Source: Helicobacteraceae bacterium (lineage in GTDB: Bacteria; Campylobacterota; Campylobacteria; Campylobacterales; Sulfurimonadaceae). From it: a DNA stretch of 64,000 nt. Positions 55,415-64,000 of the stretch are shown here, one piece after another; position 1 is the first letter of the stretch; the number at the start of each line of letters is the position of its first letter. The DNA is taken from NCBI GenBank assembly GCA_027038835.1, contig JALWGC010000002.1, forward strand, positions 62,001-126,000. The letters are read 5' to 3'. The notes under the pieces are model-generated. The model did not search any database and was not told the origin of the DNA. It saw only the letters and a program-made list of their open reading frames with translations. The position numbers and the translations under genes were made by a program.

Positions 55415-55499
55415 ATTCCTATAGGAATATTATTCGCAACTGCGAAAAAAAACTTAATAGTTTTAATCTTAATATCGCTAAAATTAATGAATCTATAAT
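55415..55499 (+). promoter_or_regulatory. Control region of the dpt operon: two palindromes and a -10 box
   Basis: The 243-base gap is much more A/T-rich than sequence to its left. It contains the perfect palindrome ATTCCTATAGGAAT (55415-55428), a second inverted repeat TTCGCA-AC-TGCGAA (55433-55446) and a TATAAT at 55494-55499, 25 bases before the dptF start. The two palindromes, 4 bases apart and 48-79 bases upstream of the -10 box, look like operators. The binding protein is not known; no regulator gene is visible here. Confidence 0.5.
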
Positions 55500-55523: not shown

Positions 55524-57119
55524 TTGTCAAAATTATTACCTTTGATCGATCAACTTTCAAAATCATCTCCACAAGCAGTATATACGCCTAAGACTCTTTT
55601 TGATAGTGAACCAATTTCTATTTTTGATTACCTTTATATTGAAACACCGATCGAAAAAGCTTATAAGAAACTTTTAGGAGAAAAACGAAACACAAAGTCA
55701 ATTGTCTTTTTATGCGGCAGCAGCGGTGATGGCAAGTCAGCTATCATAGGGAGAAATCAAAAGTTTTTCGATAAATATTTCGATGTGCATATCGATGCGA
55801 CTCATAGTTTTCGGCCGAATCAAACGGCGATCGAAGCTTTGGATGATGTTTTTGATCGTTTTAAAGAGGGGTCAAAAGGGTTGGTTGTCGGTATCAATAT
55901 GGGGATAATGTTAAACTATGCGCGTTATGGAAAAAGTGCACATGATGATATCAAAACCGCTATACGCAACTACGATGCGAACGGGAGATCTTCGGAGAAT
56001 ATCTATTTTATAAACTTTGAAGACTATCCAAAATTTGAAATGACAGACGGTGCTATCGGCTCCTCGTTTATTTTAGAACTTATAAAAAAGATAGTAGCGC
56101 GGGATGATGCCAATCCGTTTTATACCGCATACAAAGAGGACTTGCAAAACAATATCCGCAAGATAGATCATCAAAATTATTATCTTTTGGGATTGGAAGC
56201 TATACAAAATCGTATCATCGAACTACTGGTTACCGTGCACCTAAAATATGACCAGTTTTTGACTGCTCGTTCTTTGTTGGATCTGATATATGTTCTTTTG
56301 CGAGATCCTCGCTCGCTTATAGATCAGCTTTTTGAACATGATTCCAATCCAATATTGGAAAATATCTACAAAGAGGATCCCATTTTAAAGAGAACTAAGC
56401 GTTTGGACATATTTGTGCTGGAGCGTTCCAACCATAAACCTGATAAAGAGTTAGAGGCATTTGTCAAAGAGTTCAATCATCAAAGCGGTTATCAGATTTT
56501 AAACATAAGCGACGTGCATACATTGGTAAGATTTTTTTATCTGTTTCGAGGGTATGATTGTGCAAACAATTACCACCGAAGATTTGAAGATGATTTTTCA
56601 GATACTTCAACGTTTGAATTTGTTCAACTAATCGCTGCGCATCGAAACTACGATAAAGAGAAAAAAACGATAATAAAAGCATTTTACGATAAATTGCGCG
56701 AAGCGGTTTTCGCCTATGCAAACAAAGAATATCCTTCTATGAGTAAAGAATATCTTTTCCATTGTGATACGATCAATGGGTATAGTGTGTATGCTCCTTT
56801 GGAACTCTCTGCTGCATGGGATGAAATAAAAACCGATCACACACATACAATCAATAGTTTTCGTTGCTTTTTACAAGTTGAAGAGAAACTCCTACTACCC
56901 ATCGATATCTCGTTAAATTTCTATAAGCTTATCTTAGCAATAAATCAGGGGTATAGACCAAACAAACATGATAGAAATACGATCATTTTATTTGAAGAGC
57001 TGTTAGAGAGGATCGCCTCGATAGTCCGACTTTCAAAGAGGCTTGTTTTTGTCAAACAAAAGCAGCGATATACATTCATCAAGCGAAATGAAGAGATAGA
57101 GGTAAGGGAAAATGATTGA
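55524..57119 (+). CDS. dptF: DNA phosphorothioation-dependent restriction protein DptF
   Basis: DptF is an NTPase of the restriction arm that attacks DNA lacking phosphorothioate marks. The 531-residue protein has the family-specific DYLYIETPIEKAYKKLL followed by the P-loop FLCGSSGDGKSAI (65-72), and DVHIDATHSFRPNQTAIEALD in the strand/sensor region. Length agrees with the family (about 530-560). It begins with TTG eight bases after AAAGG. The gene is first of an operon with dptG and dptH; the ends overlap by eight bases. Confidence 0.93.
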   Translation: MSKLLPLIDQLSKSSPQAVYTPKTLFDSEPISIFDYLYIETPIEKAYKKLLGEKRNTKSIVFLCGSSGDGKSAIIGRNQKFFDKYFDVHIDATHSFRPNQTAIEALDDVFDRFKEGSKGLVVGINMGIMLNYARYGKSAHDDIKTAIRNYDANGRSSENIYFINFEDYPKFEMTDGAIGSSFILELIKKIVARDDANPFYTAYKEDLQNNIRKIDHQNYYLLGLEAIQNRIIELLVTVHLKYDQFLTARSLLDLIYVLLRDPRSLIDQLFEHDSNPILENIYKEDPILKRTKRLDIFVLERSNHKPDKELEAFVKEFNHQSGYQILNISDVHTLVRFFYLFRGYDCANNYHRRFEDDFSDTSTFEFVQLIAAHRNYDKEKKTIIKAFYDKLREAVFAYANKEYPSMSKEYLFHCDTINGYSVYAPLELSAAWDEIKTDHTHTINSFRCFLQVEEKLLLPIDISLNFYKLILAINQGYRPNKHDRNTIILFEELLERIASIVRLSKRLVFVKQKQRYTFIKRNEEIEVREND

Positions 57120-58425
57120 AAAATTAAAAACTGTGACAGAAGAAAATATCCCTAAAAACAATCCGACCCTTGAAACTTACTTTCCTTTAAGCACGAACGA
57201 AAAAAAGAACGCTGATAAGGCATTTGAGAGTAGTGCTATAGCCGGTCAACTTATAGGCTTTCAACTAAAAAAGCAGCTTGAAGTCAATTTCGATGCAGCA
57301 AGTTTTATAGATACAGTGTTAGAAGAGTTCAAAGAGAGTATCACTTCTCCTGAGGCTTTGGATATTATTAAAAAGATATACTTTCAAGGTGACGAACTCC
57401 CGATAATAACACCGCTGATGTATATGTCCAGACCTTTTCAATCGTTAGACAAAAAAACGAAAAAAAGTTTAAAAATCTTTCTTCAAATGTTGCAACCAAG
57501 TGATACTGCAGAAACATCCTCAAATAAGCTCAACTTTATAGAAAAGAAAATTTTTGAAATATTTCAAAAACATATCGTTGCGCATCCCTTGGTAAAAGAC
57601 TCGCATTCTTATGTGCGCTATTTGGATAGCTACTTCACTCAAGATTTCAACTATCTTCTTACCAATCCAAAATTTTTCCACACTTCTATCGATATGTTTT
57701 TAAAGTTTTATTTTTTTACATACTCGGCGCAATTGGCACTCAACATTCAAGAAGCTCCGCTACAAAAGCCTTCACTTAAAGAGTTGTATTTTATACTAAA
57801 TTATGAGCAAGCAAGTTCTGAGCGTAAAAAGATAGTAAATAACGGATACAAAACTCTCATACAGAAGATGCGATATCTCTACCCTTATCTATCGTTACTT
57901 GAGATTTTATCCGATATCATTGAAGACAAAAATTTCAAACTGTATGATCTCTCTAACATAGAGGACTCGACAGAAAACATTGAGGCAGTCGTGAACTTTA
58001 CAAATCTTTTGAGAAAAAAGCGAGGATTGTCAGCAAATTCACTTCAGTTTTTTCAAACACTTAATGATGCGTTGAAGTATCTATTTGAAAGCGCCTTTGA
58101 GCAGTTTAAAAAAAGTGACAAAAAAGCGGTTATCGATCGTTTTGTTGCTGCTTTTGAGAAGCAAGTCTCTCGCCCGTTTATACAATCAAGAGGAAGATTT
58201 GGCAAAGTTTTGGTGCTTGATCAAGATATGGTTTTGATGCTAACGAATATGTCTATAAATACCAGAGGAAAACTTCGTTTTCAGGATTTATTATGGGAGT
58301 TTCAACAGCGAGGGCTCTTCTTTGATCCGAAATCGGAAGATGCCTTGTTGGAGCTCTATGAAAGAGTTGGAAATATAGAGAGAAAAAGTGATAGTGGAGA
58401 TGCCGTATATGTACACACGATTTAG
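57112..58425 (+). CDS. dptG: DNA phosphorothioation-dependent restriction protein DptG
   Basis: DptG is the middle component of the DptFGH complex. The 437-residue protein is mostly helical and lacks recognisable catalytic motifs; its identity rests on length, position between dptF and dptH, and family-like segments such as the C-terminal GRFGKVLVLDQDMVLMLTN and KLRFQDLLWEFQQRGLFFDPKS, which resemble a winged helix. AAGGG precedes the ATG inside the end of dptF. Confidence 0.88.
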   Translation: MIEKLKTVTEENIPKNNPTLETYFPLSTNEKKNADKAFESSAIAGQLIGFQLKKQLEVNFDAASFIDTVLEEFKESITSPEALDIIKKIYFQGDELPIITPLMYMSRPFQSLDKKTKKSLKIFLQMLQPSDTAETSSNKLNFIEKKIFEIFQKHIVAHPLVKDSHSYVRYLDSYFTQDFNYLLTNPKFFHTSIDMFLKFYFFTYSAQLALNIQEAPLQKPSLKELYFILNYEQASSERKKIVNNGYKTLIQKMRYLYPYLSLLEILSDIIEDKNFKLYDLSNIEDSTENIEAVVNFTNLLRKKRGLSANSLQFFQTLNDALKYLFESAFEQFKKSDKKAVIDRFVAAFEKQVSRPFIQSRGRFGKVLVLDQDMVLMLTNMSINTRGKLRFQDLLWEFQQRGLFFDPKSEDALLELYERVGNIERKSDSGDAVYVHTI

Positions 58426-61400
58426 TGAGTTTTTAGTTCAAAATATATTCGATTGGTTAGCTCAAAGGATAGCGCAGGGGCATCGATATCGTTTTCATTC
58501 TGATGATGAAGATAATATCAAAGAGCTTGTCGAAGCACTACAAGAGAGAAAAACAGGTGAGATTATTTATAAAGAAACTCCACTTCCTTATATTGAAATA
58601 AAAGGGGTAAAACTTCTCTATGTCAATGATGTTACTGGGGTTATGAACGAGAACTTTATCTCAAATCTACGAGATGCCGTCTCCGCTCCTTATGAAGAGT
58701 TTTCGATGTGCTCATTACTGGTGCTACATAAAAGTCGTTTAGATACGGTTTTGAACTCCGCTATCGATTTGGCCGCTTTGGATGCTCCCCTTAATGCCGC
58801 TTATGTAAAAAAAGATCTGCAGCATCTCATCCATGAAACGAAAATCTCAAAACATCTCAAAGCGTTGATGAAACTACAAGCAGAGATCGTCGAGTCGGAA
58901 AGACAATCGGCTTTTGGATACAAAACACTGTTTCACTCAATCATCGATGAGACCATATACTTCAAAGAGCTTTCTTTGTTTGAAGATGCAGACCTATTAA
59001 AAGAGCATGATGGGAAAAAGATAGAAAAAAGGTTTTTAGATAACAGAAAGCTTTACGATGAGATCGAAAATATCATGATAAACTTCCCATCGGAGATAGA
59101 AGAGCGTCTTGCTAATCGTTATTCCGAAGATTTTATCAACAAATATCTCACACTCGATACATGGAAAGAAGTAACTTACGATCAGTTGATCAAAGAGATC
59201 AACAAACCTCGTGATACGATCGAGTTTGATAATTTTGAGGTAGATAACGGCGAGTGTATCCTACGAAATGAAAGTGCTACAGCTGCAGGGAAAAGAACGA
59301 AGAATATTATCGTTTTTGCTGAAGAGAAGAGAGTGCGATTTTTTATAAAATTCAAAGGCAAAGGTTTAACAAAAGATCACTTGCAGCTTTTAGATAACAA
59401 AGCGATAAAAAACGATATAGAGTGGGATTATATCGGACTTTCACGCACTTTTGAAGTCAGCCTAACATACGATCAAAATCCACTTTACTTTTCTTTAAGA
59501 CTCAATGGTGGAAAGGCATCTTCTATATTTAAATTCAAAATACTTGTTTTACAAAAAGGGGCGTTTGATTTACAAGCTATCTATAACTTTTTCATTGTCA
59601 AACCCAAAGAGAAACTACTACTCCTTCAAACAAGCGAGATGGAGATCAATTTTTCTCAAAACAAAACAGAAGAACCCTATAGAGTAAACGATGGTGAAAC
59701 TGTGGATATCCGCCGTTATCCACGTATCAACTATGAAGATCTTTATAACAACCAAGATGTTGTCGCGTTTGCTATCACAAACGGGGTTGATACGATTTCA
59801 CTGCAAATCGAAGGGGAAAAGATAAGAGAGGTTATCTCCATCCCTTTGCTCTACAATCAAGAGCGGTTAGATAGAATGTTTCATAACGGAATCAACGTGG
59901 AACTGAACTACGCCGGGAAAAAAGCGATTTTGGAGTATCAAGAGATCCCTCTCATCGCCAATCGCTTTACCTATATCGATTTGGAGCATCAAATCATCTC
60001 TAATGAGCTTATGCATTTCGGTTTTGATAAGGATGCCGCACAAGAGTTGGCAAGTGCAAGTGATGATATCTTCACATCTTATACCGCTCTTTTGCGTTGC
60101 TTTAGAGATAAAAAGACAACACCATCACTGTGTGCTTGGGATGATGAGATATGTAAATATGCACAAAAGTTTTGCGATGATGTTAAAGAGTATCTGCAAA
60201 GCATCCCCGACAATACATCGCTGAGCCCTTCACATAAATTGGTTTTAAAGATAGGGAGAGTAAGGCACGATGGCAAAGAGTATCTCTCTCCTTTTTCTCC
60301 TCTTATACTCTCTTATATCCTTTACTTAAGAGATAAAAGCGATGAAAGTCTTCCCAAACTTTCCGAAGTAACGCTAAAGCGATTGAATCCTAAGGGTCTT
60401 TTTCCATATCTTTACAAAGGCACGCAGCACTACAGCTACACCTCTTTGGTGCAAGATGATCCTTTATGGCTGGAGTTTGTCGATAATGAAGAGAACGAAT
60501 TTAGCTATGTTTCCAAATTGGTTTCAGAAAAGATTGTAGAGTTTTCCAAAGCTTTTGAGAAACTTTTTGAGTTTCGACACGATGCGCCGCTTATCATCAA
60601 CAGTATCAACAATGCAAGCAACAAAGAGATTTTCAAAGGTTTGGTCAAATACTATAAAGATAACTTCGAGAAAAAACCAAAACATATCATCGTAAATATT
60701 TACGACCAATCTTACCATGAAACCTATTTTGATATCTTTGCCGATACAGACTCTTATGAAGAGATCAAACAGCGATACAATCTCAAAGAAAATGCTGAAA
60801 CGATCATCGATATCATGCGCACCCACATCACATACTCGAAACATCTTATCGATAAATCGCAATCGTATGCACACTTGAGCTTCTTTAAAAACAACGAAAA
60901 GGTTCAAATCCAACAAAACAAAGTGGACCTTGTCAAATCCGGTTTGGTGTGTTCCGGTCTTATTTCCGGTGAGAGTTCAGAAGAGAAAAACGGATACTAC
61001 TACAGCGGCTTTGGGTTACGCAATGTCGCCATAGAGGATAAACCGCATCTGCAAATGGCAAAACTCTACAATGCCCTGCAGCGTCCGGCTTTTGAGAGCG
61101 GTGCATTGTATGATGCAAAAGAGAGCATCACACTTATGATAAGTGAAAATTTTAAAACACTTCTGCATCAATCTTACGAAAACTCTTTATGGACAGTTAT
61201 AATCGATCCGAAAGTAACATTGGACTTTTTTGACAACGAAAAAGATCTGATCTTGATCCACTACTCCGATCAGTATAGCTCTTCTGCCAATTACGACGCC
61301 ATAACCGTTACGGCACAAAAAGAGATCTATGCCGATGTGGTCGGGAGCGAAAATATCATCCGTGAGTTCAATGCCTTTAACGGCGAATGGCTTATCAAAA

Positions 61401-63427
61401 TGATAGCCGAAAAAGATAAGCGGATAAAACGGGAGAAAAAAGGGATTATCGCCGCATATAAATACATAACCGCTTTTGTAGATCGACCCGATATAACTTG
61501 GGTGCCGCTTTCTATCGCTGAACTGCTTCGTGTAGCGGGAAATGTCGGGTTAGAGATGAGCAAGAGTGATTTTAGTCGCTACAACGAGATGCATACCAAC
61601 AGCAATCTCCAAGGTGGCGCGATCTCCGATGATATTTTGCTTGTTGGATACTGTAAAGAGGGGATAATCCTCTACCCCGTCGAAGTAAAATCGGGTAGTG
61701 CCGATCTATCCAAAGCGATCAGGCAAGCTATCTCTTTGAAAAGATTTTTCAAAGATTACCTTTTCCAAGGTGATGGGATCAAAGCACAACTACTCAAGGG
61801 ACTCTTTATTAGACAGATTTTTATGCAGATAGATAAGTTCAAACTTTATGATGTCTTTGAAGAGGACTATTTTCAACCGATTATAAAAGAGAGAGAAAAG
61901 CTGCTTGAGGGTAGATACAAGATTGTAGAGTTGGATGGGTATTATGAAGGTGTGGTCGTTTACTTCAACGACTCGCCGGCACAATTTAACACCGAGTTCG
62001 ATACGCAAAATACGGAAAATATTCTCGTATGCAAACTCCCCTCATCCTATCAACAAGAGATGCTTGAGAAGTGCTACAGCGATCTAAAAGCAGAGATCCG
62101 CAACGGTAGCTTCGGTACGGATACACACTATCTTTTGGATGATGTGCAGTGCAACGGTGACCATGTCATAGAGCCAAATGAAGAATCTCCAAAACAAGAT
62201 GAACAGATCGCAAAAGAAGAGGAAGAGAAAGAGGTAGAAAAAGCTACCGAAGATAAAAGTAGCAACAAAACAGAAGATGGCTCAAAAGAGCCGATGCAGA
62301 TCATCTTTGGTACCAATGTTCTAAACGGCGAGCAGGTTATATGGTACCCAACCGATACCACAAAAACGCTCAATACCAACACAGGGATCATCGGAACGAT
62401 GGGAACAGGTAAAACCCAGTTTACTAAATCTCTTATAACTCAGATGATGCAAAATGTAGATCACAATGTCCATGCAACACCTATCGGTATCTTGATATTT
62501 GATTATAAGGGTGATTATATCAAAGAGAATTTTACCACGCCCACAGGTGCCAAAGTGCTTGATCCATACCATCTACCCTATAATCCACTTGCTCTTTTTG
62601 GAGAAAGACCACTGCTTCCGGTACACACGACAAACCTTTTTAAAACAACGCTGGCAAAAGCGTTTGGATTAGGCACGGTGCAGCAAGCCAATTTAAATCG
62701 CATCATTTTAGAGGCATATGAAAAACGAGGCATCAGCCGCGCAGACAGATCCACTTGGACGAAGTTGGCACCAACCATCCAAGATATATGGGAGATCTAT
62801 ACAAATGAGGAGAAAATCTCTTACGATTCGCTCTATGCAGCATTGAAAAAACTTATCGACTTTGAGATATTCGAGCCTGATCCCCAAAAGACAACCTCTT
62901 TGTATGACCTTATAGACGGTATCACCGTTATCAATCTCTCAGGCTATGATACAGATATCCAAAACCTTATCGTCGCTATCACATTGGATATCTTCTATAC
63001 TCAGATGCACATACAAGGTTCATCACGACTCGATGGAGATTTCAGAGAGATCACGAAGATGATCTTAGTGGATGAAGCGGACAACTTTATGTCCCAAGAC
63101 TTTGAAAGTCTCAAAAAGATCTTAAAAGAGGGGCGAGAATTCGGCGTAGGAACCATCCTCTCTACTCAACAACTCACCCACTTCAAAACATCCGAAAACA
63201 ATTATGCAGATTACCTGCAAACATGGGTGATCCATCAAGTATCCAACATCAAAACCCAAGACATCACCTCCATTTTTAACATCAGCAATAAACACGACGC
63301 AGAGACGCTTATGGAGCAAATACGCCGCCTAGAGAAGCACTATAGCATCTATGTAGATGGGAAGAAAAATATGATTAAAATGCGGGATTTGGCATTTTGG
63401 GAACTTATTAAGGAGAAAGAAAAATGA
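58409..63427 (+). CDS. dptH: DNA phosphorothioation-dependent restriction protein DptH
   Basis: The large component (about 1,672 residues). The C-terminal third is a HerA/FtsK/VirB4-type ATPase with Walker A GTMGTGKTQ (1329-1337), Walker B MILVDEAD (D1555/E1556) and the QLTHF sensor region, suggesting DNA translocation. Before it, DDILLVGY followed by PVEVKSGS (D1074/D1075, E1092, K1094) has the spacing of a PD-(D/E)XK nuclease core. The N-terminal 1,000 residues are not assignable. The GTG at 58388 gives seven more residues; ATG was chosen because GGAG lies nine bases before it. Confidence 0.9.
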   Translation: MYTRFSEFLVQNIFDWLAQRIAQGHRYRFHSDDEDNIKELVEALQERKTGEIIYKETPLPYIEIKGVKLLYVNDVTGVMNENFISNLRDAVSAPYEEFSMCSLLVLHKSRLDTVLNSAIDLAALDAPLNAAYVKKDLQHLIHETKISKHLKALMKLQAEIVESERQSAFGYKTLFHSIIDETIYFKELSLFEDADLLKEHDGKKIEKRFLDNRKLYDEIENIMINFPSEIEERLANRYSEDFINKYLTLDTWKEVTYDQLIKEINKPRDTIEFDNFEVDNGECILRNESATAAGKRTKNIIVFAEEKRVRFFIKFKGKGLTKDHLQLLDNKAIKNDIEWDYIGLSRTFEVSLTYDQNPLYFSLRLNGGKASSIFKFKILVLQKGAFDLQAIYNFFIVKPKEKLLLLQTSEMEINFSQNKTEEPYRVNDGETVDIRRYPRINYEDLYNNQDVVAFAITNGVDTISLQIEGEKIREVISIPLLYNQERLDRMFHNGINVELNYAGKKAILEYQEIPLIANRFTYIDLEHQIISNELMHFGFDKDAAQELASASDDIFTSYTALLRCFRDKKTTPSLCAWDDEICKYAQKFCDDVKEYLQSIPDNTSLSPSHKLVLKIGRVRHDGKEYLSPFSPLILSYILYLRDKSDESLPKLSEVTLKRLNPKGLFPYLYKGTQHYSYTSLVQDDPLWLEFVDNEENEFSYVSKLVSEKIVEFSKAFEKLFEFRHDAPLIINSINNASNKEIFKGLVKYYKDNFEKKPKHIIVNIYDQSYHETYFDIFADTDSYEEIKQRYNLKENAETIIDIMRTHITYSKHLIDKSQSYAHLSFFKNNEKVQIQQNKVDLVKSGLVCSGLISGESSEEKNGYYYSGFGLRNVAIEDKPHLQMAKLYNALQRPAFESGALYDAKESITLMISENFKTLLHQSYENSLWTVIIDPKVTLDFFDNEKDLILIHYSDQYSSSANYDAITVTAQKEIYADVVGSENIIREFNAFNGEWLIKMIAEKDKRIKREKKGIIAAYKYITAFVDRPDITWVPLSIAELLRVAGNVGLEMSKSDFSRYNEMHTNSNLQGGAISDDILLVGYCKEGIILYPVEVKSGSADLSKAIRQAISLKRFFKDYLFQGDGIKAQLLKGLFIRQIFMQIDKFKLYDVFEEDYFQPIIKEREKLLEGRYKIVELDGYYEGVVVYFNDSPAQFNTEFDTQNTENILVCKLPSSYQQEMLEKCYSDLKAEIRNGSFGTDTHYLLDDVQCNGDHVIEPNEESPKQDEQIAKEEEEKEVEKATEDKSSNKTEDGSKEPMQIIFGTNVLNGEQVIWYPTDTTKTLNTNTGIIGTMGTGKTQFTKSLITQMMQNVDHNVHATPIGILIFDYKGDYIKENFTTPTGAKVLDPYHLPYNPLALFGERPLLPVHTTNLFKTTLAKAFGLGTVQQANLNRIILEAYEKRGISRADRSTWTKLAPTIQDIWEIYTNEEKISYDSLYAALKKLIDFEIFEPDPQKTTSLYDLIDGITVINLSGYDTDIQNLIVAITLDIFYTQMHIQGSSRLDGDFREITKMILVDEADNFMSQDFESLKKILKEGREFGVGTILSTQQLTHFKTSENNYADYLQTWVIHQVSNIKTQDITSIFNISNKHDAETLMEQIRRLEKHYSIYVDGKKNMIKMRDLAFWELIKEKEK

Positions 63428-64000
63428 ATTTTAAAGAAAACTATGTGAATGAAATAAAAAAAAGAATTAATGATGGCTTGTCACCATCAAGAGCTTTTAT
63501 TTCATATTACCTATGTTTATTCTTCAGACTTGATTATGGTGATGAAAGAGATTTCATTTGTGATAAACCAAACGATAAAGGTATTGATGCGATTTATGTA
63601 AATGATGAAACTGAAGAAATTTATTTTATTCAATCAAAATTTGGTGATAGCACACCAGAAAAATATTATAAGAGTGATAAGAGCATTGGAGATAAAGATC
63701 CTTCTCAGTTTTTAGGCAGCGTAGAAAAATTTAAAACAAAAGAGGGAATAGATACTATTTTAAATAGCTCTAAAACGGCTAAAGAATTAAAAGACTTGAT
63801 TACAGACTTACAATTGAAAAACAAGACTCATTATGATTTTAGAAAAATATTTATTACTAATGGGAAGCACAATCAAGACTCTTTAGATATTAAAGAAAGC
63901 ACAAGCATTGAGTTTGTTTTACTTAATGATTTTGAGCAAGAGTATAATAGATATATGAGTATAATTAATTCTACTAAACCTTCGCCTATCAATTTTGAGT
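63424..64000 (+). CDS. AIPR-family (abortive phage infection) protein, 5' part
   Basis: The frame is open to the window edge (about 192 codons). The ATG overlaps the dptH stop (ATGA), so it belongs to the same operon. The N-terminal domain shows KGIDAIYVNDETEEIYFIQSKFG: D55 and Q70-S71-K72 have the arrangement of a (D/E/Q)xK restriction-nuclease core as in Mrr-like enzymes, and this block is typical of AIPR proteins. The characteristic C-terminal AIPR domain is not in view, so identification is by the N-terminus and context. Confidence 0.72.
   Translation, partial: MNFKENYVNEIKKRINDGLSPSRAFISYYLCLFFRLDYGDERDFICDKPNDKGIDAIYVNDETEEIYFIQSKFGDSTPEKYYKSDKSIGDKDPSQFLGSVEKFKTKEGIDTILNSSKTAKELKDLITDLQLKNKTHYDFRKIFITNGKHNQDSLDIKESTSIEFVLLNDFEQEYNRYMSIINSTKPSPINFE

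Follow-up and report, generated by a model that had tools for sequence, protein, structure and literature searches.

Layout of the locus

The genes considered here lie at the right-hand end of the window, by which we mean the whole 64,000-nucleotide stretch of DNA that was analysed, and continue past its edge. Positions beyond the edge are given as window equivalents, with the matching positions in locus L002.

55416-55427, upstream of dptF: palindrome TTCCTATAGGAA, a candidate operator; second copy at L002:15872-15883, between dndC and the Xre gene, past the window edge
55524-57119, plus strand: dptF, TTG start (TIGR03238, 437.5 bits; PADLOC DndF, 523 bits)
57112-58425, plus strand: dptG (TIGR03236, 231.5 bits)
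58409-63427, plus strand: dptH (TIGR03237, 1046.8 bits), with a C-terminal HerA/FtsK-type ATPase
63424-65121 (L002:10425-12122), plus strand: AIPR gene, 565 aa, of which 63424-64000 lies inside the window
65118-65519 (L002:12119-12520), minus strand: dndE, beyond the window edge (PF08870, 59.7 bits)
65516-67582 (L002:12517-14583), minus strand: dndD, beyond the window edge (PADLOC PbeC, 743 bits; DndD, 266 bits)
67482-68801 (L002:14483-15802), minus strand: dndC, beyond the window edge (TIGR03183, 389.7 bits)
L002:15940-16173, plus strand: Xre-type HTH gene, 77 aa, beyond the window edge (PF01381)

The first-pass annotation described a chain of overlapping genes from dptF to AIPR, and both the ORF coordinates and the family profiles bear this out. 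The dptF, dptG and dptH genes are intact, and all three exceed the NCBI cut-offs for TIGR03238, TIGR03236 and TIGR03237. The overlap is 8 nt between dptF and dptG, 17 nt between dptG and dptH (counting from the dptH ATG at 58409), and 4 nt (ATGA) between dptH and the AIPR gene, whose ATG lies at 63424. The longest ORF for dptH begins at a GTG at 58388, and the conserved start is the ATG at 58409, as the residue coded there is an invariant column in an alignment of five DptH proteins. The overlap of dptH with the AIPR gene probably leads to translational coupling of the two. At its other end, the last 4 bases of the AIPR gene are also the 3′ terminus of dndE, which is encoded on the opposite strand.

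Since dndE, dndD and dndC adjoin the AIPR gene on the opposite strand, the locus is a dptFGH-AIPR operon convergent with dndCDE, i.e., a complete phosphorothioate (PT) defence locus without dndB. The earlier suggestion of a solitary restriction arm is thus set aside by genes just past the window edge. The other suggestion, that modification genes lie further right, holds for dndC, dndD and dndE but not for dndB, of which a genome-wide search of the host found none. DndB is not obligate, having been reported in only about half of the taxa that carry Dnd modification genes (PMC10853773). The dndD and dndE products score below the NCBIfam equivalog cut-offs and match PADLOC DndD/PbeC and PF08870, respectively. 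Elsewhere the genome has four frames of the aminotransferase class V type, one of them strong, as candidates for the cysteine desulfurase (DndA or IscS). The locus thus resembles DndABCDE-DndFGH in having dptFGH and dndCDE present and adjacent, but it differs in lacking dndB and in carrying an extra AIPR cassette between two convergent operons. A flavoprotein gene follows the Xre gene past the window edge. When relatives were compared for an empty site of the whole island, the NUDIX and flavoprotein genes that neighbour it were found on separate contigs or at a long distance from each other.

The palindrome TTCCTATAGGAA occurs three times in the genome (1.97 Mb): once in each of the dptF and dndC/Xre promoter regions and once inside a coding frame. 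The upstream regions of dptF and dndC/Xre have a 15-bp identity around it. The palindrome is a candidate operator for the 77-aa Xre protein, which may join both arms of the system; it was sought in relatives and not found there.

The complete AIPR protein matches PF10592 at 79.4 bits against a cut-off of 25 (E 4.9e-22, model positions 1-301 of 308), and its frame is unbroken to 65121, so the identity first proposed from the part inside the window stands. PADLOC assigns the protein to AbiU (E 1.4e-30). PF10592 is the only family that it matches, and the GmrSD_N/DGQQR/GmrSD_C architecture of DndI is absent. The GC content of the gene is 0.253, far below that of both flanks (0.35-0.40 for dptF, dptG and dptH; 0.39-0.445 for dndE, dndD and dndC) and of the window (0.434), which suggests that the AIPR gene probably has a history separate from that of its neighbours despite overlapping both. 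AIPR genes are also present on viral contigs (IMG/VR; L099-L110), and the family therefore also travels on phage-like DNA.

Occupants of the slot between dptH and dndE

We surveyed the interval between dptH and dndE, here called the slot, using five DptH sequences as queries against 84,980 species genomes. This gave 80 loci, to which five loci from other searches were added, for a total of 85; these are the best-scoring loci, with simple ORF calling, rather than a random sample. DptH is rare, being present in 3 of 397 genomes of the class and 4 of 228 of the family. The fourth DptH of the family (L161, genome G490) lies within a 2,400-aa open frame.

In 70 of the 85 loci, dndD/E lie downstream of the dpt genes, and 68 of those 70 are convergent. 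The slot contents of the 70 loci were a DGQHR protein (30), DndI (8), a ParB-like 365-aa protein (8), AIPR (7, window included), a GHKL ATPase (5), DUF262 with an ATPase (2), other genes (5) or nothing (5). Occupants with a GmrSD_N domain, DndI counted in, number 10 of 70. A 411-aa protein of L098 that clusters with AIPR was left out of these counts. The seven slot AIPRs come from the window genome, Halomonas, Larsenimonas, two Vibrio, Xenorhabdus and an Oceanospirillaceae MAG; all seven match PF10592, and the Halomonas locus has the same 4-base dptH/AIPR overlap as the window. The pairing of dptH with AIPR proposed from the window therefore recurs: 6 further loci of the survey and 5 E. coli genomes have it. 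Given that AIPR is found in 42 of 397 Campylobacteria genomes, an AIPR gene would be expected in a slot of ~2.5 kb about 0.01 times in 70 loci, so chance is excluded.

Two relatives of the same family have the convergent layout with other slot contents. In G142 the slot holds a gene for a GmrSD_N+GmrSD_C protein (the DndI architecture), and its ATG lies in a 4-base overlap (ATGA) with the dptH stop; in G175 it holds a 111-aa small protein (TM) and a DGQHR protein. In a Sulfurovum locus (L021:14998-15007) the slot is empty, and the ends of dptH and dndE are 9 bp apart. The ParB-like cassette of ~365 aa (L097:15129-17181 and other loci) is usually followed by a 327-aa uncharacterised protein with a GGVDI motif, possibly a nuclease, and the two are a candidate for another PT-associated effector pair. 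GHKL (HATPase_c_3) cassettes occur with a GIY-YIG nuclease or a Methyltransf_35 protein (L037:15165-17263, L039:8366-10518, L071:15554-17840 and L095:15143-17412).

E. coli allows the slot to be compared among strains of one species. One dptH type is present in 176 of 5,426 genomes, and in the records compared, flanks that are 94-99.9% identical surround three different cassettes: a small TM protein with a DGQHR protein, AIPR (WP_001577775.1), and DUF262 with an ATP-dependent nuclease. Queries with these cassettes matched 123 (DGQHR), 31 (DUF262 with nuclease) and 5 (AIPR) genomes, more than one locus per genome being possible, and all five AIPR copies are in the slot. DNA identity ends in the last codons of dptH and restarts 15-33 nt within the end of dndE. 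The AIPR loci have an AT-rich slot, as do the E. coli loci compared. In E. coli GMF065 (L142:9718-10742), AIPR and dndE are separated by ~1 kb of AT-rich DNA that lacks long ORFs and is perhaps the remnant of an earlier cassette.

The relationships of AIPR and DptH disagree. The Halomonas AIPR locus has a DptH 73% identical to one from a locus with DndI in the slot. The AIPR of Larsenimonas shares 53% identity with the Xenorhabdus protein and 31% with the Halomonas one. We infer that cassettes were acquired several times independently. Judged by the varied contents of the 70 loci and by the exchange in E. coli between near-identical flanks, AIPR is thus a recurrent, exchangeable cassette at the position of the characterised nickase DndI. 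The first-pass idea of a composite defence system was therefore sound in that the AIPR gene belongs physically to the Dnd/Dpt locus, but the gene is one of several slot cassettes and not a fixed extension of the operon.

Features of the AIPR protein

The window AIPR has a nuclease-like motif, GIDA...FIQSK, at residues 53-72 and NGCQ at 290-293. All eight slot AIPRs (8/8) have G[IVM]DA followed by [QN]xK within the N-terminal 105 residues, and all eight likewise have NG[CG]Q inside the AIPR domain. The predicted model of the window protein is poor (pLDDT 60), and a fold search with it was uninformative. In the model of the Xenorhabdus slot AIPR (pLDDT 84), the N-terminal order is helix-strand-strand-helix-strand-helix-strand, which would fit a PD-(D/E)XK core. 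Weak fold matches of the Xenorhabdus model include FokI, restriction endonucleases, DUF262, GmrSD_N and DndB-type proteins; in a viral fold library the weak matches were a DUF262 protein (E 9e-4), GmrSD_N (3.9e-3) and a DndB-type protein (0.07). No PDB match of the AIPR models reached E 0.001, and profile comparison (hhalign) was not significant with either DGQHR (E 0.066, placing NGCQ near DGQH) or DndI (E 0.47). The nuclease and ParB/Srx assignments are therefore putative. Searches found neither solved structures among AIPR relatives nor an experiment on an AIPR protein, and an earlier paper gives AIPR an N-terminal HEPN RNase domain, not a DNase (PMC3506569).

Discussion

The closest parallel is the IscS-DndBCDE-DndI / dndFGHI system of Salmonella enterica Cerro 87, in which a fourth gene is co-transcribed with dndFGH and has the same slot as in G142. 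This gene encodes DndI, a ParB-like/HNH nickase that restricts phage jointly with the PT modification genes; its ATPase is stimulated by PT, and PT has been proposed to release DndI from self DNA (PMC11662687). The two systems differ in that DndI combines DUF262/GmrSD_N with HNH (GmrSD_C), whereas the AIPR of the present locus carries NGCQ together with a PD-(D/E)XK-like motif, and dndB is missing. The DndI nuclease is coupled to the PT mark, and for AIPR such coupling is proposed by analogy. The position between dptH and dndE was already occupied in earlier descriptions: a DGQHR protein encoded there was named a PT "satellite" in 2011 (PMC3226654), and in E. coli the presence of 1-3 hypothetical proteins between dpt and dnd was pointed out in 2015 (PMC4373003). 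The satellites (TIGR04172 and others) share with AIPR the slot and their association with the PT system, but they have a DndB-like DGQHR domain, a small TM-like partner and no recognised nuclease domain. As for the AbiU/AIPR family (PF10592), to which the window protein belongs by the curated cut-off, its known context is Abi and restriction-modification loci, and an association with PT loci was not found in the literature searched. Nor did that literature, which consisted of open-licence papers, describe AIPR after dptH or cassette exchange between dptH and dndE. DndFGH with a fourth effector is known; AIPR in that place and the exchange slot appear to be new.

The slot is filled with different nuclease-like genes, even among strains of one species, so the AIPR gene is most likely an additional weapon that a known defence system can exchange. 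By analogy with DndI, we think it rather probable that AIPR sits in an exchangeable effector slot of a PT locus as an alternative fourth effector using the PT mark of DndCDE. It would read this mark and act beside DndFGH. Cutting of DNA would fall to its N-terminal PD-(D/E)XK-like domain, and the NGxQ domain may bind nucleotide and/or PT DNA, as the DGQQR domain does in DndI, and would thereby keep the nuclease off modified self DNA. Swapping cassettes could let the locus change its mode of attack or escape phage inhibitors while the PT mark is kept. We put forward more tentatively, as a possibility, that the convergent operons enclose a dedicated effector-exchange slot, in which recombination within the conserved ends of the genes exchanges entire PT-reading effectors, and that AIPR would represent an unrecognised class of PT-sensing nuclease, a DndI analogue on a different scaffold. 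PT sensing is not a property of every slot gene, since the occupants include members of families (GHKL, HNH, Mrr) in which no ParB-type domain is recognised.

Alternatively, AIPR could be a back-up suicide effector, an abortive-infection toxin (DNase or RNase) restrained by the intact Dnd/Dpt complex and freed when phage inhibitors disable DndFGH. The first-pass annotation also considered a back-up function, and the AbiU/AIPR family context and the overlap with dptH fit such a role. Makarova et al. (2012) linked AIPR to DndB and restriction loci and proposed a suicide role, within their hypothesis of suicide genes in immunity loci (PMC3506569). Rakesh et al. (2024), in a reappraisal of Dnd whose text names neither AIPR nor DndI, described nucleases at locus boundaries and proposed suicide roles for them (PMC10853773). 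However, the slot's characterised occupant, DndI, acts in restriction as a PT-coupled nuclease and is no suicide toxin (PMC11662687), and AIPR is found in many genomes outside dpt loci; we therefore consider a suicide role unlikely.

The varied contents, AT-rich cassettes and empty slots could also mean that the convergent 3′ ends offer a permissive site for insertion within a defence island, AIPR being a passenger with no functional tie to PT. This seems very improbable, as most occupants belong to nuclease- or DNA-modification-linked families (30 DndB/DGQHR-type and 10 GmrSD_N including DndI) instead of being random genes, across genomes the slot's DGQHR proteins are found together with the PT system (PMC3226654), and the overlaps with dptH and dndE are both kept. 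That AIPR regulates PT modification in place of the missing dndB, as the dndB-less genome, the published link of AIPR to the DndB N-terminus (PMC3506569) and the non-significant placement of NGCQ near DGQH might suggest, is weakened to the point of being hardly credible by the gammaproteobacterial AIPR loci that retain dndB (L024, L035, L043, L081 and L092), by Campylobacterota loci that lack it whether the slot holds DndI, DGQHR or nothing, and by the 77-aa Xre protein and shared palindrome, which are better candidates for regulation.

PT defence has so far been treated as a fixed DndFGH restriction arm, sometimes with DndI. A swappable slot, seen even between E. coli strains with near-identical flanks, would explain how many effectors come to use one DNA mark. 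A gene between dptH and dndE would be a simple pointer to new PT-dependent nucleases. AIPR is a large abortive-infection family that has received little study, and the E. coli strain pairs allow a direct test of its function.
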